From the NCBI GenBank assembly GCA_018650165.1, contig JABIGM010000018.1, positions 1 to 64,000 on the forward strand: a stretch of DNA of 64,000 nucleotides. The letters run 5' to 3'. The stretch is from Methanobacteriota archaeon. Its GTDB lineage: Archaea; Thermoplasmatota; Poseidoniia; Poseidoniales; Poseidoniaceae. Below the pieces are notes generated by a model. It was not told where the DNA came from. It saw only the letters and a list, made by a program, of their open reading frames with translations, and searched no databases. The translations under genes were made by a program, and so were the position numbers. How positions within the stretch are numbered: position 1 is the first letter of the stretch; each line of letters starts with the position of its first letter. Of this stretch, positions 22,221 through 33,466 are shown in pieces.

Positions 22221-23009
22221 ATGGGCATGTCACGGGTTTTCATCCGAAGTTTGCTACCCCTAATCCTAGTGTCATTAATGCTTTTACCGGGGCTTAGTGA
22301 AGCCTACCCAGATGGTATTGGCGGTGAACAAAGCAATGCTGGTGAAACTATTGATGATGTTGCCAAAGAAGGTTGTCTTTGCCATGGTGGCGAAGCAAGT
22401 AATTCCGTAATGGTAATTCTTGTCGACGTACCGCACTCTTGGACTCCAGGAGATGCCTACACAATGAGACTAGAAATCATCGGCGGACCCGATTCAGACA
22501 AGGGTGGATTTTCTGCCCGAGTTAGCGCTGGTGAGTTATCTGGTGATGGACAATCGTGGGAGGAGGACTCGATGTCAAGGACACATTCGTCCTCTGCAAC
22601 CAGAATTTTCGAACTTATTTGGACACCTCCTGCCGAGGGAACAGGCACAGTAGATTTCTGGATCTCGGCTAATGCCGTGAATGGTGCAGATGGACCAGTG
22701 GGAGATAATTGGAATCAACTGGTTTTCAATTTGGTCGAAGTTGCAGAAGATGATGGTCGTGGCACACGCAGTTTGATTGCAGGTAGCGGGACTCCTGAAG
22801 CACCAGCTGCCGATGCCGGAGCAGTTGACTTACATTCGATGGGAGCGCCTTTCCGTGCGCACTGGCTAGGTTTACTTGGATTTGGAGCAGTTATCTGTGT
22901 AATTATATTCTGTGGGTTCCTCCTTAGATACGGATTTTCGACATCCTACAAGGGACGTAGTAACGTTTTGAGACTGCGATACAAGATTAACAGGAGAGGT
23001 GACCAGTGA
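22221..23009 (+). CDS. Secreted/anchored protein with CLCHGG motif, Reeler / choice-of-anchor-V-like domain, C-terminal TM
   Basis: Signal peptide; EGCLCHGGEASNSVMVILVDVPHSWTPGDAYTMRLEIIGG; TM near C-terminus; first gene of Rieske/cyt b cluster. Confidence 0.6.
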   Translation: MGMSRVFIRSLLPLILVSLMLLPGLSEAYPDGIGGEQSNAGETIDDVAKEGCLCHGGEASNSVMVILVDVPHSWTPGDAYTMRLEIIGGPDSDKGGFSARVSAGELSGDGQSWEEDSMSRTHSSSATRIFELIWTPPAEGTGTVDFWISANAVNGADGPVGDNWNQLVFNLVEVAEDDGRGTRSLIAGSGTPEAPAADAGAVDLHSMGAPFRAHWLGLLGFGAVICVIIFCGFLLRYGFSTSYKGRSNVLRLRYKINRRGDQ

Positions 23010-23461
23010 TGGCCAAGGATACAATCACCCGTCTTCTGGAGCAGGTCGCATCAGGCGATGTTAGTATCAAGGATGCTCGAAAGGCACTAGAAGATGCAAC
23101 GCTAACAGAAGACCAAATGGATTCAGCAATCAATCACGGGGTATTCAACCCTGCTGAACCAGGAACTATTATTTCAGCATCTCTTGCTCCATCGGGCTCA
23201 TCTGCGCTGGCTTTATTCTTCTTCGGATGGGGCATATTCTGGACAATTTATTGGTTTGGAACTATGCTTTACGGGTTCCTAAATGGCTCATCATGGGACC
23301 AACAACAACTCTCATACCATCTGGCAATGGGAATTTCAACTCTTATTATGATGGGGATAGTCTACATGAAGTGGGTTCTTCCAGACAAAATTATTGTTAA
23401 GCACAGGCGAAATAAGTACATCCCTGAGCATCCAAAGGATTGGAGAGAGTATAATTGGTGA
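23006..23461 (+). CDS. Small membrane protein of the Rieske/cyt b cluster
   Basis: Two hydrophobic helices; overlaps neighbours on both sides. Confidence 0.55.
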   Translation: MMAKDTITRLLEQVASGDVSIKDARKALEDATLTEDQMDSAINHGVFNPAEPGTIISASLAPSGSSALALFFFGWGIFWTIYWFGTMLYGFLNGSSWDQQQLSYHLAMGISTLIMMGIVYMKWVLPDKIIVKHRRNKYIPEHPKDWREYNW

Positions 23462-24315
23462 GTTCTATGGATGATATGAAGTTGAGACCAGCACCAACTC
23501 CCGAGAGTGCTTTATTGTCGTCAATACAAACGACTTCGATTAATCGAAGACAATTCTTGCGATATGGATTCAATGCTGCTGGAGGAGTTCTTGCTGCAAC
23601 ACTTGGAGCTCTTGGATTCGCTTCAATCTTGATGCCGCCTGGCGAAGGTGGCGGAGGAGATTCGTCTGTCCTATTCTGGGCCAAAGGTCGTGAAGAAGAA
23701 GCATGGTATGGTGCAAAACATTTGCAACCAATGCTAAAGTCGGATTTCGTGACTGAATCTGCTAATTCTAATATTGGAATGGCTGGAGCGCAAGGTGTTT
23801 GGAATGGTTTACCAGTTGTGGTCAATTATGTCCCACACGCACAAAACTCAGACTCTCCTATCGCTGACAACTCACCACGATTCCAAGAAATGGCTGGCTA
23901 TGATATCGGCAAGAACTACGTTGGCCATGCTACTGAATATCTACTTGGCAATCCTGATGTCTTTGACCCTAGTGGCAATTTAGTTATGATCTTCTCTCGT
24001 TGTACTCACTTATGCTGCATACCAGGATGGCAACTTGTTTCAAACTCATTTACTGCAGATAATTGGACCCCTGGAGGGGCAGATGATGGTGGTAGCAAAC
24101 TGTTCTGTATATGCCATTCAAGTCGTTTCGACCCTACTGCGATTGAAGTAAACCGAAACATAAACCGTTCAAATGGTGCTACATTCGACTACCTCGGAAT
24201 ACGTCGCGCAGGTGGCCCTGCCCCAGTAGGGTTACCGATAATTCCGATAATAATGAATGGCGACTCCATCGGGGCGTCAAGTGAATACACGGGCTGGCTG
24301 ACCTATTGCGATTGA
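23455..24315 (+). CDS. Rieske iron-sulfur protein with Tat-like signal
   Basis: NRRQFLRYGFNAAGG Tat-like motif; Rieske ligands CTHLCCIPGW and CICHSSRFDP. Confidence 0.9.
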   Translation: MVSSMDDMKLRPAPTPESALLSSIQTTSINRRQFLRYGFNAAGGVLAATLGALGFASILMPPGEGGGGDSSVLFWAKGREEEAWYGAKHLQPMLKSDFVTESANSNIGMAGAQGVWNGLPVVVNYVPHAQNSDSPIADNSPRFQEMAGYDIGKNYVGHATEYLLGNPDVFDPSGNLVMIFSRCTHLCCIPGWQLVSNSFTADNWTPGGADDGGSKLFCICHSSRFDPTAIEVNRNINRSNGATFDYLGIRRAGGPAPVGLPIIPIIMNGDSIGASSEYTGWLTYCD

Positions 24316-24316
24316 G

Positions 24317-25192
24317 GTGATTATCATGAATACAATATTTTGGGTACTCTGGTTCTTTATCGCTTTCATCACTGTGTTGATCGCATTCACACTTCGTAAA
24401 GAAAACGAAGACATTCCTCGTCGTGAAATTCTTCGGGCTGTAGAAACCAGTGGTAAAATGGGCTTTGCTGAAAGAACATTCCTTTGGGTGTTCTCATTCC
24501 TCGATACAAGATTCAGAATTCAAGATTACTGGAATATGAGTAAGGGCGCCTACTACAATATGCACAGACAAATGCCGCTTACACATGCAGAGAAGTACAA
24601 ACTCCGAATCATTTGGTATTGGTACCCATTGTACTGTCTTGGTGGCATATCATTCCTTTCGTTCATTATTCTTGTAATCACAGGTACTGTTCTTGGTATC
24701 TATTATGTCCCAGGTGGAGAAGGTGACCCTTCCCCTGCGTATGCGAGTATGGAATTCATCATGACTCAATTACCATTTGGATATATTATCAGAGCTGTTC
24801 ACCATTGGGGAACTCACTTCATGGTAGCATCTGTATTCCTCCATATGTGTCGTGTTTACTTTACAGGCGCATACCGCAACCCTCGTGAATTGAATTGGTT
24901 AATTGGTGTTGCACTCATGGCTCTGACAATTGTATTCGGATATTCGGGCTATCTATTGCCATGGGATAGCCTTGCATTTGGCGCTGCCACTATTGGGATT
25001 AACATGGCTAACTCAACGCCGTTAATTGGAAAATATGTTTCGACATTACTGTTCTCCGGCTCATCGCTGTCTCACAGGGCTGTGACTCGAATGTATTTCA
25101 TTCACGTATTCATATTGCCAGTTATTGTTACAACTTTGATCATCATACATTTGTTCATAGTTTGGGTTCAAGGAATTGCGGAGCCGCATTGA
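24317..25192 (+). CDS. Cytochrome b N-terminal domain (b6-like)
   Basis: RAVHHWGTHFMVASVFLHMCRVYFTGAYRNPRELNWLIG...GYSGYLLPWD and SHRAVTRMYFIHVFILP heme-binding motifs. Confidence 0.95.
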   Translation: MIIMNTIFWVLWFFIAFITVLIAFTLRKENEDIPRREILRAVETSGKMGFAERTFLWVFSFLDTRFRIQDYWNMSKGAYYNMHRQMPLTHAEKYKLRIIWYWYPLYCLGGISFLSFIILVITGTVLGIYYVPGGEGDPSPAYASMEFIMTQLPFGYIIRAVHHWGTHFMVASVFLHMCRVYFTGAYRNPRELNWLIGVALMALTIVFGYSGYLLPWDSLAFGAATIGINMANSTPLIGKYVSTLLFSGSSLSHRAVTRMYFIHVFILPVIVTTLIIIHLFIVWVQGIAEPH

Positions 25193-25201
25193 TATGGAGG
25201 T

Positions 25202-28012
25202 ATGAATATGGGTCTAATTGAGAATCTTGGTGCTGTTGCTTCATCCTATATGGATGAGAAAGAAAATCTTCAGACCACTGATGAAAGGCGTGTACGCACT
25301 ATGGCAGGACATGGTTTCTGGCCGCATGAAGTGCTACGTGACACACTTATTTTCGGATTTTTAGCTGCAGTATTGTTGTTTTATGCTTGGCTCATCCCAC
25401 CACCACTACACAGTGCAGCAGACCCCTTTGCCCAGGCTGGTTTCGTATTCCCTGACTGGTATGTTCTATTCTCATATGGTTACCTAAGGTGGGGTGAATA
25501 TCTACCTCAGTTCTCTGTCCCTCTTGGGCCAGTGGGTGAATTCTTCGGCCAGCCATCTTTCCCATGGAACGCTGCATGGTGGGGTGCTTTCCTTACAGGA
25601 ATCCCAGTTGGAATTCTAGCACTTCCACCTTTCCTAGGTGGACGTGAAAAGAGACCTGTAGAAGACCCCTGGTTTGCGAGTGCAGGTGTAGTTTATCTTG
25701 CACATATTTGGTTTATCTCAGTATTCTCAATCAATATCTTCCTAGAATTATATGGGAAGAACCGGAGTGATTTCTGTAAATTAGACAGTCACGGAGATTT
25801 GGTCTGTGGCGCACGAGCACCATGGATTGCTGATTTATTCAATGCCATACCATGGATCATGACAGGTATTCTGTTATGGATTGTCATCTACTTTGTAGCA
25901 AAATGGTTGTTCAATAATGCATGGGGTGCGAAATTTACTCCCGCCCATGGAAAGAAATTAATTGTAGGCGCCTTCATTGTTGCAACCGCAGCAAGTGTAG
26001 TCTCTTACCCTGTTTATGACAATGGTTTCTGGGATGCAAAAGGATTACTCACAATAGAAGACTATGGCGAATTAGAGGACATGCGTTCTCAACCTCTAGA
26101 TGTTCATGTTCACGAGCACAATGAGCACATGACTGACCAAGGATTCGAAGGTGATATAGTTCCAGCATCCGCCTGGATGCAATGGAACATATACCAACCC
26201 GCAAGATATTATTTAATTGATTTTGCCGATAGTAATGGGCATCAAAACCTAGATACTGGGGTCAATGGAGCAAGCGGACTCGAGACCTATTCAGGTGATG
26301 AAACTGCAGGTGAGTCAGGTTACTTCAACATCTCAAATAATCACTGGCCAGAAAATGTTGAATTTACAACTGTACCTGTCGATGCAACCTGTGCAACAAG
26401 AGCCAGTGAAGTCATTATCGATGGAGGAGTTCCGACCTCGGCAATGATGCAATCAAGCCTCATAATTACTGACCATAAAACCGGTGAAGTTGTGATTGAC
26501 ACAGACTGTTCTACTGGAGAAACTGGTGTTGAGTTAGGCGCTGGCCTTTACCACTATGAATTCCGTGCTTACTCTACAGATGCCCTTGCTGCTAACGAAA
26601 GCGTCACTGTTGAAACTCAATTCACAATCAAAGCTTACCAACCACTGCTATTGTATGGTGAAGACGCAGGCAATGGACTTGCAGGACATGCAGTTAATTT
26701 GTCGAATTCACTGGACATCGAATTAGAAGGAGACGAGATGGGCGTTGTTGTTAATCCAACATACCATGCCAATCCAAAGGCTCTAGATGCTAAATTGACC
26801 TATGCTATGTTTATCCCATGTTTGACAGCAGGCGCTGTTGTATTCATCCTGCTACGTAATATGGCAAGAGGATATGAATTTGAAATGAACAAGTGTTACG
26901 GCTGTGATCTTTGTGACGATGCATGTCCTGTGCGTCTGTTTAATGCTGGTGACAAGTTGAACATCATTTACAATTCATGGAACAATGAAGATGATGGTGT
27001 GCCTATGTATTCCTGTCTCACTTGTACCGCATGTACAAATGCGTGCCCACAACTAGTCGACTATGACTCATATGTTGACATCCGTCGCTCACTCATCGTC
27101 GGTGGACCTGCTGCTGAAATTCCTCACACTGTGCTACAAGCAGTTCTAGCTGCTGAGGCCGAAGAAGAGAGTGATGCAGACTTTGTACCTGTCAAAGAAT
27201 ATCCTATCGATTCAAACATTGGCTATTACCCAGGTTGTGTCGACTACCTCGACCAAGAAATGGTATTTAGCCACCTCAATGAGGGTGATATGAATCTTGG
27301 AGATTCTACCAATTCAGCATTCACCCTGTTTGAAGAAATGGGTGCTGAAGTGTCATACCTTGGACGCGACTTCCTCAAGTGCTGTGGCCATGACCAAAAA
27401 TGGCAGGGATTGGATGAAGTGTTTGACAAGTTAAAGTCATACAACCAGAAGAAGATTGAGGCATCTGGAATCGACACATTGGTTTCATCCTGTGCTGAAT
27501 GTTTCCGAACCTTTGCACGTGACTATGAATTAGAAGGTGTCAAAGTAATGCATACTACAGAATTCCTTATCGAAAATGGCTTCGATATGGAGATGAAGGT
27601 TGAAGACGAATTGACAGTAACCTATCACGACCCTTGTCGCTTAGGTCGCCAGATGGGAATCTATGACGAGCCTCGTGACTTGGTCAACAGTGTTGAAGGT
27701 GTCAAACTGGTTGAGATGGAGCACAGTGGCGAAGATGCAATGTGCTGTGGAGTCTCTAGCATGATGTCTTGTAATGAAAATGCACGCTCCTTGAGAGTTT
27801 CAAGGATGGAAGAAATTCGTAACACTGGAGCAGATATGATGATTACATCATGTCCAAAGTGTGTGTCTCACTTCGAATGTCTGAAGTTTGAAGATGATGA
27901 GAAGTATGACATCGAGATCCTAGATGTTGTCTCCTTCCTTGCACGCCAAGTAGAAGCAAAGAAGCAGGTCCATTCTGAGCCTGTATCTACGCATGTACCT
28001 GCAGAAGCTTAA
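25202..28012 (+). CDS. Fusion: cytochrome b C-terminal domain (subunit-IV-like) + extracytoplasmic domain + TM + HdrD/GlpC-like 2x4Fe-4S and two CCG domains
   Basis: FPDWYVLFSYGYLRW; CYGCDLCDDACP and CLTCTACTNACP; CCGHDQ...CAEC and CCGVSS...CPKC; one continuous 936-aa ORF. Confidence 0.9.
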   Translation: MNMGLIENLGAVASSYMDEKENLQTTDERRVRTMAGHGFWPHEVLRDTLIFGFLAAVLLFYAWLIPPPLHSAADPFAQAGFVFPDWYVLFSYGYLRWGEYLPQFSVPLGPVGEFFGQPSFPWNAAWWGAFLTGIPVGILALPPFLGGREKRPVEDPWFASAGVVYLAHIWFISVFSINIFLELYGKNRSDFCKLDSHGDLVCGARAPWIADLFNAIPWIMTGILLWIVIYFVAKWLFNNAWGAKFTPAHGKKLIVGAFIVATAASVVSYPVYDNGFWDAKGLLTIEDYGELEDMRSQPLDVHVHEHNEHMTDQGFEGDIVPASAWMQWNIYQPARYYLIDFADSNGHQNLDTGVNGASGLETYSGDETAGESGYFNISNNHWPENVEFTTVPVDATCATRASEVIIDGGVPTSAMMQSSLIITDHKTGEVVIDTDCSTGETGVELGAGLYHYEFRAYSTDALAANESVTVETQFTIKAYQPLLLYGEDAGNGLAGHAVNLSNSLDIELEGDEMGVVVNPTYHANPKALDAKLTYAMFIPCLTAGAVVFILLRNMARGYEFEMNKCYGCDLCDDACPVRLFNAGDKLNIIYNSWNNEDDGVPMYSCLTCTACTNACPQLVDYDSYVDIRRSLIVGGPAAEIPHTVLQAVLAAEAEEESDADFVPVKEYPIDSNIGYYPGCVDYLDQEMVFSHLNEGDMNLGDSTNSAFTLFEEMGAEVSYLGRDFLKCCGHDQKWQGLDEVFDKLKSYNQKKIEASGIDTLVSSCAECFRTFARDYELEGVKVMHTTEFLIENGFDMEMKVEDELTVTYHDPCRLGRQMGIYDEPRDLVNSVEGVKLVEMEHSGEDAMCCGVSSMMSCNENARSLRVSRMEEIRNTGADMMITSCPKCVSHFECLKFEDDEKYDIEILDVVSFLARQVEAKKQVHSEPVSTHVPAEA

Positions 28013-28283: not shown

Positions 28284-28565
28284 CTAAGATTGCTCTTTGT
28301 CGTCTTCCATCCCTCGAATCTCATAGTTAGATGGGAATAGAGCCACGATAACTCCTGCAATTAAGAAGCCGAGACCCAAAGCAAATCTCTGCTCTACGAA
28401 AAGAAATTCTAGAGCGAAAACCACTAACAATAATCCGCCAATATTTGAAATCCAAACTAGTGCTTTGAAAGTTGAAAGTGAGACTCCTGTGGTATTGGCT
28501 CCTCTGGAGGGGCCGAATTCTCCACCGAATCTTTGTGCTCCGTCATGGTCTGGTTGGTCACTCAT
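28284..28565 (-). CDS. Small two-TM membrane protein
   Basis: ALVWISNIGGLLLVVFALEFLF and FALGLGFLIAGVIVALF helices. Confidence 0.6.
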   Translation of the reverse strand: MSDQPDHDGAQRFGGEFGPSRGANTTGVSLSTFKALVWISNIGGLLLVVFALEFLFVEQRFALGLGFLIAGVIVALFPSNYEIRGMEDDKEQS

Positions 28566-28569
28566 ATTC

Positions 28570-28902
28570 TCACCTATCTATCATTGTAATCGCATCGGTT
28601 GGACACGCTAGAACACAAAGCCTGCACCCAGTACAGGCATCTCGAATAATTTTGGCTTTGCGATTACTAGGTACTTCGAGTAAAGGTGAGGCCATTTCTT
28701 TGAAGTATAATTCAATTGCATCATCATCACAAACTATTGTGCACTGATCACAACCAATGCACAATTTCTCAGTAACCCAAGCAACGGTCCCTTCGCCACC
28801 TTTTGTCATAGCACGTCGCTCACCCTTTTGCCTAGCAAGAGAGATCGCTATCCGTTCAGCCTCCACTGCACGGCGCTTTGACAGGTCCTCTGGAGATGTC
28901 AT
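28570..28902 (-). CDS. Ferredoxin-type protein, two 4Fe-4S motifs
   Basis: CIGCDQCTIVCDDDAI and CTGCRLCVLACPTDAI. Confidence 0.85.
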   Translation of the reverse strand: MTSPEDLSKRRAVEAERIAISLARQKGERRAMTKGGEGTVAWVTEKLCIGCDQCTIVCDDDAIELYFKEMASPLLEVPSNRKAKIIRDACTGCRLCVLACPTDAITMIDR

Positions 28903-29559: not shown

Positions 29560-30546
29560 TTAAGATTGTAATTCGATTGACACGCCTTCTGAGCGCATTA
29601 CTTCAATCACTAATTCGATTACATCATTCGGCAAATCTTCCGGTGCGTGTACACCCGACGGAAGCATTTCAGGTCGGTCAACCCAGGCAATAGCACAACA
29701 TGCAGTTACGAGTCCTGTCGTTCTTGCCATACTAGAATCTCCATCTGAACCACTGTCCTCGACAACCCATCTGCGCTCATTATCTCCCGAGGTAATATGT
29801 ACTTCCATCCAAGTAAACTCTCCGCGCAGTGGGTCGATTTTCCAAGCATCAACTAACTCTTCGGGATTAAGTTTAGTCGCCTGATACTTCTGAATATGCC
29901 CTGGCCATCTGACAGTATACTCGCCCATCTTTGTTGCAGGAATGTTTAGCAACGAGCGTAGCCCATCAGTCAGGAATGCATCCATCTCCCGACCGTTAGC
30001 ATCTATTGTATGCAGTTCAGTCATAGCAGGAACCTCGCAAACCTCACCGTTTTCGATGATTCTGGCTTCACGAGTATATTCTGCAATTACATCATGGGGG
30101 GAAAATGGTGCCATATACGACCAGTGGTTATCTGGTTCACTGGGATTGCCACCTACTTTGATACTCACTTTGTCTAATGTCCCAAATTCACGGTACGCCT
30201 GTGAGACGAGCATATTGGAGAGACCTGGTGCGATTCCAACATCCCACAGAATCTTGCTTTGAACATTTTCTAATCGATCTGGAGTTATTTCGCTAAAGGA
30301 AAGGTCTACTATTTTTTGTCCCGAATTTTTTAGCATACTGGTTGCCTTGTGGCCCAGTGACCCCGGCAGCATATTGATGATTAAATCCGCAGAACTGTGG
30401 TCCGCTTCCAAGGCGCTACCTAAATGGAAAGTTGCATCGGTTTCTCTCTCGACAATATCGAATAAATGCACTTCGAAATTTGCATCCACCAAACGTCGTG
30501 TGACAAATAAGCCAACCAGGCCCCCTCCTAGGCAGTGTACCCGCAT
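29560..30546 (-). CDS. Saccharopine dehydrogenase-like (Lys9/lysine dehydrogenase family) NAD(P)-binding protein
   Basis: VHCLGGGLVGLFVTRRL Rossmann; WDVGIAPGLSNMLV typical of the family. Confidence 0.75.
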   Translation of the reverse strand: MRVHCLGGGLVGLFVTRRLVDANFEVHLFDIVERETDATFHLGSALEADHSSADLIINMLPGSLGHKATSMLKNSGQKIVDLSFSEITPDRLENVQSKILWDVGIAPGLSNMLVSQAYREFGTLDKVSIKVGGNPSEPDNHWSYMAPFSPHDVIAEYTREARIIENGEVCEVPAMTELHTIDANGREMDAFLTDGLRSLLNIPATKMGEYTVRWPGHIQKYQATKLNPEELVDAWKIDPLRGEFTWMEVHITSGDNERRWVVEDSGSDGDSSMARTTGLVTACCAIAWVDRPEMLPSGVHAPEDLPNDVIELVIEVMRSEGVSIELQS

Positions 30547-31754
30547 TAATTCTTCACCATCTGCTTTTGAGATTCCGCACCCATTGCTAGCATTGACAAC
30601 TCAGCAACCAGAGCATGCCATCCATGTGCATGCTCACCATATGTGCCACCTACTTCACTGTAAGGGAGAAATATCGCAGATGGGGAATTCAAATTTTCAA
30701 TCTCACCTTTCTTTGGATTTATTCGATAAAACCATGATGCTGCTTCACCATCTACCAAGTAGACAACTGGTTCAACAGAATAGCCTTCACTCGACTTTAG
30801 AGTGGTGGGTACGCCTTCCTGTATCAGGAAGTTTTCAACATCGACCCCTCCTTTTGAGTACATTAGTCGTTTGAATTTTCGATTTGAAAGATTCAGAAGT
30901 TGGTTACCACTCGTTACTGCCATAATCCCTAAGCCATAGGTGCCCCTATCGTTTTTGACAAAAGCAACTGGCTCTCTTTCAATGCCCAATGCTTGATATC
31001 TAACAGCGATTTTAGCCAAGAACTCATCTATTTCTACTGCAAGGGCTTGGCGGCAAGTTTCCTTTTCCAAACATTTGTTTTCACTTACAAACCAGTCAGT
31101 TAGAAGGTGCCACGGATCAATATCCAATACCTCTGCAATCTCGTTGACATATTCTTGTAAACAAGCATAGTGTTCGGACTTTCTTCTTCTCTGCCAACCC
31201 ATATGAGGCGGTGGTGAAACTTGGTGGGCAGCAATTCCCGGAACAACACCTTCAGTTAAATCATTATTCAGCATTATAAGGTCAGGGCTATTTCCATCAA
31301 TCATTAATGAATCGTTGACGAGTTTGACTTGGTCTAATACCAGTGGTCCTGTGATTCCATCAATAGAACCGTGCCCACCCAACTCTGGTGAACCGACAGT
31401 GCAGCGGAAACCTCCATCAATTAATAGACGCTTGATTGTTGAAACATTTTCAGCATAACCGGGATTCCTCGTGTGGGATTCTGGATATAGATGGACCCAT
31501 TTACATTCTGGCTGCTGTCGAATAATATGTTCGCGCAGTAATATAGAAAGTCGTTCTTCATCCTCGCTTGACACATTATTGAATCCTGCAGGAAAATGGT
31601 TTGCATCGACTACTGCTATTTTCCACCCACAGTCACGAATGTCGACGCTACCATAGATTGGAATTGGTACCTGTGAACGCTTTTTAGCCATCCACTCAGT
31701 GATCAATTCACGATTGGCTTCAAGATGTTTGGTGAGGTCATGTACTGCGGTCAT
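30546..31754 (-). CDS. gshA: Glutamate-cysteine ligase, Acidithiobacillus/proteobacterial GshA type (putative)
   Basis: YGSVDIRDCGWKIAVVDANHFPAGFNN; PVAFVKNDRGTYGLGIM; VENFLIQEGVPT; VEPVVYLVDGEAASWFYRIN. Confidence 0.7.
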   Translation of the reverse strand: MTAVHDLTKHLEANRELITEWMAKKRSQVPIPIYGSVDIRDCGWKIAVVDANHFPAGFNNVSSEDEERLSILLREHIIRQQPECKWVHLYPESHTRNPGYAENVSTIKRLLIDGGFRCTVGSPELGGHGSIDGITGPLVLDQVKLVNDSLMIDGNSPDLIMLNNDLTEGVVPGIAAHQVSPPPHMGWQRRRKSEHYACLQEYVNEIAEVLDIDPWHLLTDWFVSENKCLEKETCRQALAVEIDEFLAKIAVRYQALGIEREPVAFVKNDRGTYGLGIMAVTSGNQLLNLSNRKFKRLMYSKGGVDVENFLIQEGVPTTLKSSEGYSVEPVVYLVDGEAASWFYRINPKKGEIENLNSPSAIFLPYSEVGGTYGEHAHGWHALVAELSMLAMGAESQKQMVKN

Positions 31755-33466
31755 GATACCACTTCCTCAAGCAGCGAAGTGAGATCCCCACTGCGCTTAC
31801 TTATTCCGCCATCCAATATGTGCATCGATTCAAACAACCCTAGACCTATGGCGATTTCTGGCTGCTTTATTAAGGCGCGTTTCAGACGCGGATAACGATT
31901 AGCAATTGGCTCGACAAAGTAGTTTAATTCATCTAAGACCGAATCTATCATTCGGGGTGATGTTGCCCTACCTGCTGGCATTTTAGGTCGACGAACAATT
32001 TCAGTCGGTAGGTTGGTCAATTCTGCAGCTGAACGTAAAGCAGCCTTCTCATCATGAGATGGAGGGAGCCTCCAATCCATTGGCAATTTGTTTGAATCTT
32101 CGCGGTGCCTACTCCCTAAAAATGGCACCCGAACCTCGAGGCTATGAGCCATTGAGTGCCGGTCTACTAACCGCAGTTGAAAATTAGATAATTGACCATG
32201 CTCTAGTTCAAATTGTAAAAAATCCTCAAGTGATTTCGTATGTGCTTCAGGTGTTAGGTCGTCACTCCACCACGAATCTCCTTGAAGATTTGTAAGGCTG
32301 CAGTCCATATCACTCAAACGTGATCTAATCAATTTCGAATGACCCTCTAAATCTCGGTATCTTGGGTAACCCGCATGTAACTCATCAGCACCTTGACCAC
32401 ATAGGCCTACGGTCACAGACTCCGCCATCTTAGCAAAAAGTGGTTGGAAAAATAGTACAGTGACATCTAAGTCCTCTCCATGCCATGCTAAATCTGGTAA
32501 TTTGGAATGAAATGAATCGGGCTCGAGTATGTGCTGGTGGTGTTTGAGGTCTAGACTCGATGCTACAAGTTCTGCTGCTTGCCAGTCAGGATTGTCTTCG
32601 CTCTCGGCTACTGTCCAACATTCTGGTACATCTTGTTCCGCAATCTCTGCTGCCTGCCGTGCAACTGCACATACAAGGCTTGAATCGAGTCCCCCCGACA
32701 ATACAATGCCAACAGGTACATCGGCCATCAATCTATCACTCACACTCAAAGTAAACGAGTCCAGTAAGCCTTCTGGGTCATTCCAATCACTAGTTGGGAG
32801 AACTTTCTGGATTTCAAATCGCGACGAACTTGTCATTCTAGGCTTTCCATCAATCAATTCCCAGACCTCGACACTACCTGGTCTAACGTTATGGACATCT
32901 GCAAAGAGAGTGGTTGCGTCTAGGGGGTACTCCCATGCAATTCTAGCTTGCATTGCAAAATCATCGATCTGTGGAATATATGATTCATGCGCCCTTAGTG
33001 CCTTAGCTTCGGATGAAAACAGAAGACAGTCGTCAACAATAGTTCGCATTAAGGGCTTGATGCCAACGGGGTCTCGGGCCAAAATTAGTTGGCCATTTGA
33101 CCATAGTGCAAATGCAAACATTCCATCTAATTTAGATATCCATTTCGCATGATCATTCGCATTACCTTTACCAGTATGCAACGATAGAATAACTTCGCTG
33201 TCCCCATTGGTAGAATAATTGTAAGAGTTACTTTTCAAATCAAGATGGTTGTAAAACTCACCATTGACTACTGCAACTTTACCAGGACCACGCAATGGCT
33301 GAGGTGAACCAACTAAATCTAAGATGGCAAGTCTTGCATGGGCTAAGCCACAAAAATCATCTTCATAGGTGCCGCGTCCATCAGGACCGCGATGTTCCAT
33401 GAGGTCAATCATGCGCGATAGTACAACCTTGTCAGGTTGTCCAAGCATGCCACCTATGCCACACAT
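31751..33466 (-). CDS. asnB: Asparagine synthase (glutamine-hydrolysing)-like
   Basis: N-terminal MCGIGGML Ntn glutaminase; EHRGPDGRGT; LSGGLDSSLV PP-loop. Confidence 0.85.
   Translation of the reverse strand: MCGIGGMLGQPDKVVLSRMIDLMEHRGPDGRGTYEDDFCGLAHARLAILDLVGSPQPLRGPGKVAVVNGEFYNHLDLKSNSYNYSTNGDSEVILSLHTGKGNANDHAKWISKLDGMFAFALWSNGQLILARDPVGIKPLMRTIVDDCLLFSSEAKALRAHESYIPQIDDFAMQARIAWEYPLDATTLFADVHNVRPGSVEVWELIDGKPRMTSSSRFEIQKVLPTSDWNDPEGLLDSFTLSVSDRLMADVPVGIVLSGGLDSSLVCAVARQAAEIAEQDVPECWTVAESEDNPDWQAAELVASSLDLKHHQHILEPDSFHSKLPDLAWHGEDLDVTVLFFQPLFAKMAESVTVGLCGQGADELHAGYPRYRDLEGHSKLIRSRLSDMDCSLTNLQGDSWWSDDLTPEAHTKSLEDFLQFELEHGQLSNFQLRLVDRHSMAHSLEVRVPFLGSRHREDSNKLPMDWRLPPSHDEKAALRSAAELTNLPTEIVRRPKMPAGRATSPRMIDSVLDELNYFVEPIANRYPRLKRALIKQPEIAIGLGLFESMHILDGGISKRSGDLTSLLEEVVS

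Follow-up and report, generated by a model that had tools for sequence, protein, structure and literature searches.

We examined a stretch of 64,000 nucleotides (nt) of DNA (hereafter the window; contig JABIGM010000018.1, positions 1 to 64,000, assembly GCA_018650165.1) from an archaeon of the order Poseidoniales (Marine Group II; family Poseidoniaceae, phylum Thermoplasmatota). The last gene of an operon in this window encodes a single protein in which subunit IV, the cytochrome b C-domain of a complex III, is continuous with an iron-sulfur (Fe-S) module of the kind found in heterodisulfide reductases (Hdr). We propose, at somewhat better than even odds (roughly 0.55), that the operon encodes a menaquinol-type, b6f-like complex III in which an HdrC-HdrB-like cytoplasmic arm has been added to subunit IV, and that this arm is wired to ferredoxin or flavodoxin, most likely as an input of electrons. 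The parts of the protein, the junction between them, its conservation and the partner genes can all be read from the sequences described below.

Subunit IV and an Fe-S module in one open reading frame

The initial annotation had described an uninterrupted open reading frame (ORF) of 936 amino acids (aa) that begins like subunit IV, continues through an extracytoplasmic part and a further transmembrane (TM) helix, and ends in two 4Fe-4S motifs and two CCG domains. Its limits proved exact: the ORF starts with ATG, with GGAGGT a short way before it, and contains no internal stop codon, and every one of the named parts was located (Table 1). Of the Pfam families proposed for checking it, Fer4_8 was found at residues 561-617 and CCG in two stretches (8e-24), but Cytochrom_B_C (PF00032) had no match in the window protein at E≤0.1 and was detected only in its relatives. 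The subunit IV identity therefore needed independent proof. Related fusions at loci L134 and L133 scored 39.3 and 22.5 bits with PF00032 (gathering cut-off 20.7), and the same two proteins scored 100 and 83 bits with CCG (gathering cut-off 20.6). A profile of 14 subunit-IV-type domains, with that of the window included, retrieved cytochrome b C-domains of bc1 complexes (1.8e-11) and the b6f subunit IV (1.6e-9) and placed the PDWY of the fusion on PEWY, the Qo motif of which it is a variant. Where the operon has an unfused homologue in this place, Pfam and NCBIfam both identify it as a plain subunit IV protein. These results bear out the assignment of the N-terminal part as subunit IV.

The topology predicted from hydropathy, the order of TM helices and positive-inside charges places the PDWY loop outside and the Fe-S and CCG domains inside the cell. 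The CCG domains contain two complete CX(n)CCX(n)CXXC sets, with all ten cysteines present in Poseidoniales and a long first spacing (47) in the first domain (CCG1). CCG1 is of the Hdr type, with Cys728 and Glu766, as opposed to the Ser728 and His766 of the EtfD type. At the level of sequence, it is thus confirmed that a single protein unites a subunit-IV-like membrane domain and an insert with a pair of [4Fe-4S] motifs and a pair of CCG domains.

Conservation of the fusion

A scan with one genome per species returned 316 related stretches, the best 80 of which were all from Marine Group II. The fusion is constant in Poseidoniales and was found in both families of the order. We recovered 126 full-length copies, and in 122 of them the cytochrome b6 gene lies directly upstream on the same strand (gap of -35 to 19 nt). 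Among the 119 copies that were aligned, none of the 18 Fe-S cysteines differs, and the extracytoplasmic insert is the variable part of the protein. For subunit IV, the junction and the Fe-S part alike, pN was ~0.05, and for the insert it was ~0.18, with a near-saturated pS of ~0.7. Purifying selection is strong across the junction.

An assembly chimera, a frameshift or a pseudogene could in principle have fused two unrelated genes, and in one relative (G005) the two halves do lie in different frames at residue 617-623. This explanation can be excluded, because many independent assemblies agree on the fusion: they supply the 126 full-length copies, the Fe-S cysteines are invariant among the aligned ones, selection acts over the junction, and related fusions occur in three other lineages.

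Origin of the Fe-S module

To place the fusion in its history, loci within the phylum Thermoplasmatota were compared. The initial annotation had raised the prospect that relatives encode the two halves in separate ORFs, and this is true of one part only. In the sister order (f3, loci L128-L132, taken as Marine Group III by position), the gene order is kept; subunit IV and both ferredoxin motifs form one ORF of ~350 aa and CCG forms a second gene, which overlaps the first in four of the five loci. The CCG part is thus split off there, whereas the junction between cytochrome b and ferredoxin motifs stays fused. The lineages G066 (L133) and G075 (L134) carry the complete fusion with the extracytoplasmic insert absent. 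In seven other families, the genes for the choice-of-anchor V protein, the DUF7318-like protein, Rieske protein, cytochrome b6 and subunit IV are mostly kept without the Fe-S module. The unfused subunit IV has the C-terminus YExxLNxxYYKVR, and fused proteins run on at this place as YEFEMNKCYGCDLC (Y-E-F-E-M-N-K-C-Y-G-C). Since the unfused subunit IV ends at the exact point of the junction, we conclude that the Fe-S module was appended to its C-terminus. As a separate observation, in a lineage without the Fe-S arm a small membrane protein encoded after subunit IV (L153:7338-7859) bears a glutaredoxin-like DUF836 domain.

In a phylogenetic tree, the cytochrome b-linked modules form one clade (100/99), the nearest sequences in the sample being MvhD-HdrCB-type proteins of the same phylum, and EtfD-like paralogues are placed far from this clade. 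By these sequences, the module descends from HdrC/HdrB-type proteins and not from EtfD, and the single clade suggests that it was recruited once. The cytochrome b tree is compatible with one origin of the fusion, with weak support (49/30) that amounts to no proof. The module had initially been called HdrD/GlpC-like; the kinship with Hdr holds, but the ancestry is HdrBC-like rather than EtfD/GlpC-like. Membership in the EtfD family was rejected, as the fusion lacks both marks of the EtfD signature in CCG1, a Thr or Ser in place of the second cysteine and a His preceding the last one. Close membership in EtfD, GlpC or TfrB was likewise rejected, with NCBIfam scores far under every cut-off. A separate EtfD-type protein in the same genomes does carry the Ser728/His766 signature, together with a weak Nitrate_red_gam-like membrane part.

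Ferredoxin and flavodoxin genes beside the operon

Two genes for an RnfB-like ferredoxin and a small membrane protein lie 3′ of the operon (Table 1). Of the 56 loci whose sequence extends far enough downstream, 52 have the pair. In the other Poseidoniales family (L019, L021, L141 and L142) it is downstream of the operon in the same direction and separated by a small gap, and it is also codirectional and downstream in the sister order. There, the ferredoxin begins with either a Thermoplasma-type zinc ferredoxin (1.3e-16) or Flavodoxin_1 (6e-27). The flavodoxin replaces the zinc ferredoxin at the N-terminus of the ferredoxin subunit in L131 (6946-7935, minus strand; identified there by family search) and L132. 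By sequence, the flavodoxin start in these two loci is a natural ferredoxin-to-flavodoxin swap within a respiratory gene cluster. Exchange between ferredoxin and flavodoxin is a mark of a low-potential carrier. At the partner position, G066 has a four-cluster ferredoxin, and in G075 the start of an HdrA2-like gene (L134:5435-6379), cut by the contig end, overlaps the stop codon of the fusion.

As to an Rnf complex, only the RnfB-like ferredoxin was found beside complex III; RnfACDEG were not searched for in the genomes. RnfB has been reported from Marine Group II without RnfACDEG (PMC6336850), and we infer that the ferredoxin gene of the window is the best candidate for this orphan RnfB.

Adjoining the ferredoxin gene, gshA (glutamate-cysteine ligase, PF08886, 7.7e-95) and an asparagine-synthase-like gene occupy positions 30546-33466. 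The gshA gene is 2.5 kb downstream of the fusion, and the two genes are kept in 51 of 56 long Poseidoniales loci; the gshA linkage is missing in L141, of the other Poseidoniales family. This neighbourhood suggests gamma-glutamylcysteine as a low-molecular-weight thiol.

The complex III operon

The operon spans positions 22221 to 28012, and the two partner genes are convergent to it at 28284-28902. The cytochrome b N-domain and Rieske genes both adjoin the fusion gene upstream, as first annotated.

Table 1 Features of the operon, the fusion subunit and the partner genes in the window. Positions are in nt unless given as residues.
Feature	Position	Strand	Remarks
Choice-of-anchor V domain protein, secreted, membrane-anchored, GCxCH motif	22221..23009	+	First operon gene
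Small membrane protein, DUF7318-like	23006..23461	+	17.3 bits, below 27-bit cut-off
Rieske iron-sulfur protein	23455..24315	+	Tat-like signal RRQFLRYG; CTHLCC / CICHSS
Cytochrome b6-type N-domain	24317..25192	+	Heme b ligands H162, H176, H263, H278; extra N-terminal TM
Fusion subunit	25202..28012	+	Last operon gene; PDWY and Fe-S cysteines invariant in 119 aligned copies
Subunit IV/cytochrome b C-domain	Residues 1-275 of fusion		Qo motif PDWY at 84-87
Extracytoplasmic insert	Residues 276-528 of fusion		
Last TM helix	Residues 532-550 of fusion		
Two [4Fe-4S] motifs	Residues 565-575 and 605-615 of fusion		Directly after last TM
CCG1 ligands	C679, C727, C728, C764, C767 of fusion		
CCG2 ligands	C812, C848, C849, C884, C887 of fusion		
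Small membrane protein accompanying ferredoxin and operon	28284..28565	-	
RnfB-like 2x[4Fe-4S] ferredoxin	28570..28902	-	Best NCBIfam match RnfB, below cut-off

The N-domain has cytochrome b6 as its best match in the Protein Data Bank (PDB; 1VF5, E 1.5e-42). Its two bis-histidine heme b sites, H162/H176 and H263/H278, align on the b6 ligands and are kept in Poseidoniales and in all related lineages read. C107 aligns with Cys35 of b6, the attachment residue of heme cn/ci. This cysteine is present in all 123 aligned Poseidoniales rows with a residue at the position, in the fused relatives L128, L133, L134 and L160, and in one unfused relative, L151. The Rieske gene carries both [2Fe-2S] motifs; the Pfam Rieske domain was not registered and the NCBIfam Rieske model matched only below its cut-off. 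At most of the related loci in the phylum, the operon includes the DUF7318-like protein. There is no p-side subunit of the cytochrome c1 or f type in the operon, and the choice-of-anchor V protein occupies that place. Many archaeal Rieske/cytochrome b complexes are without c1 or f. The GCxCH motif of the choice-of-anchor V protein is kept across the phylum, mostly as CxCH and as CxxCH in L151. This protein is a candidate partner for the Rieske branch outside the membrane, perhaps as a heme or metal site of an unusual kind that takes electrons from the Rieske protein. In G066 and G075, the cytochrome b6 (L133:11086-12975 and L134:788-3613) has a long N-terminal extracytoplasmic extension with Ig-type repeats by eye, although the reading frame in L134 may begin too early.

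Structure prediction was performed with AlphaFold2 on cytochrome b6 and the fusion joined by read-through of the in-frame TGA (pLDDT 51, pTM 0.34). The CCG part was mostly at pLDDT 75-87, and the extracytoplasmic insert showed strands at low confidence. In Foldseek, the CCG part matched LutA (TM-score 0.77 by target), HdrB (0.62) and EtfD; for the membrane part, the match was bc1/b6f cytochrome b. As confidence was low except in the CCG part, no geometry or distances were drawn from the model.

Proposed electron transfer through the Fe-S arm

The initial annotation suggested a passage of electrons linking the quinone/Rieske branch with an Fe-S/CCG site in the cytoplasm. This is still the best-supported reading, although the flow of electrons, its direction and the assembly of the ferredoxin with the complex are all things that we infer. 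The Fe-S arm would be an electron wire between the Qn site, with heme bN and cn, and the cytoplasmic ferredoxin/flavodoxin pool, with the RnfB-like ferredoxin subunit in between. It is less certain that electrons would normally arrive from reduced ferredoxin made by 2-oxoacid:ferredoxin oxidoreductase. Menaquinone would be reduced at the Qn site by electrons from the arm, and the quinol would give up its electrons to the Rieske branch at the Qo site. One and the same assembly would then serve both as ferredoxin:quinone reductase and as quinol:Rieske-branch oxidoreductase. More tentatively, and at less than even odds, we suggest a hard-wired ferredoxin/flavodoxin:quinone:Rieske oxidoreductase in which low-potential electrons enter the n-side of the Q cycle through a covalent HdrCB-type wire.

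The metabolic setting is consistent with an input of electrons. A 2-oxoacid:ferredoxin oxidoreductase is encoded in all ten genomes tested, and NuoF (PF01512), the NADH-binding subunit of complex I, is absent from seven of seven Poseidoniia genomes (G000, G055, G021, G025, G037, G043 and G130, one of them a single contig); together these make reduced ferredoxin a major electron source. Complex I of Poseidoniia has been called a canonical NADH dehydrogenase in the literature, although NuoF is absent in these seven genomes, and it may take electrons from ferredoxin instead of NADH. PDWY marks low-potential, menaquinone-type chains (PMC6349771), and by a published rule the Rieske and heme bP pair is symmetric around the quinol potential (PMC12954380). 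This rule leaves heme bN well above ferredoxin, so that flow from ferredoxin would be downhill.

Other points weigh against the proposal. In the family to which the window belongs, the ferredoxin gene faces the operon from the opposite strand and is not part of it. The heme cn cysteine is Ser in four of the five sister-order genomes (L129-L132) that still carry the module, and the unfused L151 has Cys; strict co-occurrence of this cysteine with the Fe-S module is thereby ruled out, and heme cn is not obligatory for the arm. A NuoF-less complex I could already oxidise ferredoxin, in which case a second outlet would not be strictly needed. Disulfide chemistry, too, would be compatible with the complete Hdr-type cysteine sets of Poseidoniales. 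The distances from clusters to hemes are not fixed by the low-confidence AlphaFold2 model.

The complex could instead run as an output by bifurcation, with a quinol at the Qo site giving one electron to the Rieske protein and the other, via the b hemes and the Fe-S arm, to ferredoxin or flavodoxin. The parts list is that of the anammox proposal, namely a b6-like cytochrome b, a separate subunit IV and an n-side Fe-S module (PMC12954380). Modules of the HdrBC type are parts of bifurcating enzymes, an HdrA-like gene follows the fusion in G075, and the module and ferredoxin genes occur together. However, ferredoxin (~-400 to -500 mV) is far below the bN expected for a menaquinone complex, so that output would need a very low bN or help from the proton gradient. 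An unusual high-potential acceptor, such as the multiheme cytochromes of anammox, was not seen in the operon. Moreover, Marine Group II have been described as aerobic heterotrophs (PMC6336850), which make reduced ferredoxin from 2-oxoacids. Output by bifurcation would be thermodynamically harder for a low-potential complex with PDWY, and we consider it unlikely.

Disulfide chemistry at the noncubane clusters of the CCG domains, which would reduce or form a low-molecular-weight disulfide such as bis-gamma-glutamylcystine with electrons from quinone or heme b, is in our view unlikely. The ten CCG cysteines are present and E766 replaces the histidine of EtfD, as in Hdr-type proteins by published criteria (PMC13083937), and the linkage of gshA points the same way. 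Yet the sister order lost one CCG1 ligand in every genome examined (C728S in L129 and L131, C767G in L128). The module was retained despite this loss, which favours a role in relaying electrons over one in which disulfide catalysis is obligatory. In addition, the gshA linkage is not universal (L141), and Hdr clusters open to solvent, for which sensitivity to oxygen is to be expected, sit poorly with an aerobic way of life.

Least probable of these is an input from flavoproteins, in which the CCG arm would take electrons from the electron transfer flavoprotein (ETF) or from a dehydrogenase of the lactate or glycolate oxidase type and pass them to the quinone pool, like EtfD, GlcF and LutA. The best PDB sequence match is EtfD (9OJN, E 4e-20), EtfD and LutA are the best structural matches of the confident CCG region, and ETF is encoded in all ten genomes tested. 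By sequence, however, ETF has its own EtfD-type route in the separate protein with its own signature, the fused module groups with HdrBC-type proteins, and no flavoprotein gene is adjacent to the operon in Poseidoniales. Both disulfide chemistry and flavoprotein input are less supported than the electron wire.

Comparison with known systems

The concept of a Rieske/cytochrome b complex with a cytoplasmic redox module already exists for anammox bacteria, and HdrDE, EtfD and DsrMK are known cases of Fer4-CCG arms on NarI-type cytochromes. The anammox complexes (Kuenenia Kustd1480-1485 and Kuste4569-4574) share a b6-like cytochrome b, a subunit IV-like protein, a Rieske protein and an n-side Fe-S redox module thought to exchange electrons with heme bN/cN, and they have been proposed to make NAD(P)H by quinol bifurcation (PMC12954380). 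Their module is an FAD/NAD(P) oxidoreductase and they have p-side multiheme cytochromes; here, the module is HdrC/HdrB-like and covalent in subunit IV, ferredoxin/flavodoxin genes are present, and there is no multiheme cytochrome. HdrDE/HdrABC and DsrMK share with the fusion the Fer4-CCG arm, equal cysteine sets and the order from cytochrome b to cubane to CCG clusters. HdrE and DsrM, however, are NarI-type cytochromes without a Qo site or Rieske protein, whereas the anchor here is the cytochrome b6/subunit IV of complex III. The mycobacterial ETF:menaquinone oxidoreductase EtfD (9OJN, PMC13083937) likewise combines an anchor, two cubane clusters and two CCG domains in one protein that leads to menaquinone, but its five-TM heme b anchor is unrelated to complex III and it has Thr/His ligand changes where the fusion keeps the Hdr-type cysteines. 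With b6f, the complex shares the b6-type cytochrome b, the position of the heme cn cysteine and ferredoxin as a suspected n-side donor (PMC13287000, PMC5683061). b6f has no built-in Fe-S arm and ferredoxin entry to it is unproven, whereas the proposed Fe-S wire of the present complex is part of subunit IV itself.

In the literature searched, subscription papers and preprints being outside its scope, we found no description of an HdrBC module fused to a cytochrome of the b6 type. What appears to be new is the Fer4-CCG arm built into a b6f-type subunit IV, together with its ferredoxin/flavodoxin partners.

The uncultured Marine Group II are among the most abundant planktonic archaea. Their complex III has been described as cytochrome b and Rieske protein with canonical bc1 absent (PMC6336850), and the anatomy reported here offers a plausible explanation for this "missing" complex III as well as for the orphan RnfB. 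Should ferredoxin exchange electrons with the arm, the fusion would represent a genetically fixed ferredoxin entry at the quinone-reducing side of a b6-type complex. Such an entry to b6f is so far a proposal in work on cyclic electron flow in photosynthesis (PMC5683061, PMC13287000). If true, the complex would be a natural, non-photosynthetic counterpart of the ferredoxin-plastoquinone reductase that has long been sought in b6f, and Q-cycle enzymes would be extended to direct coupling with the low-potential cytoplasmic pool.

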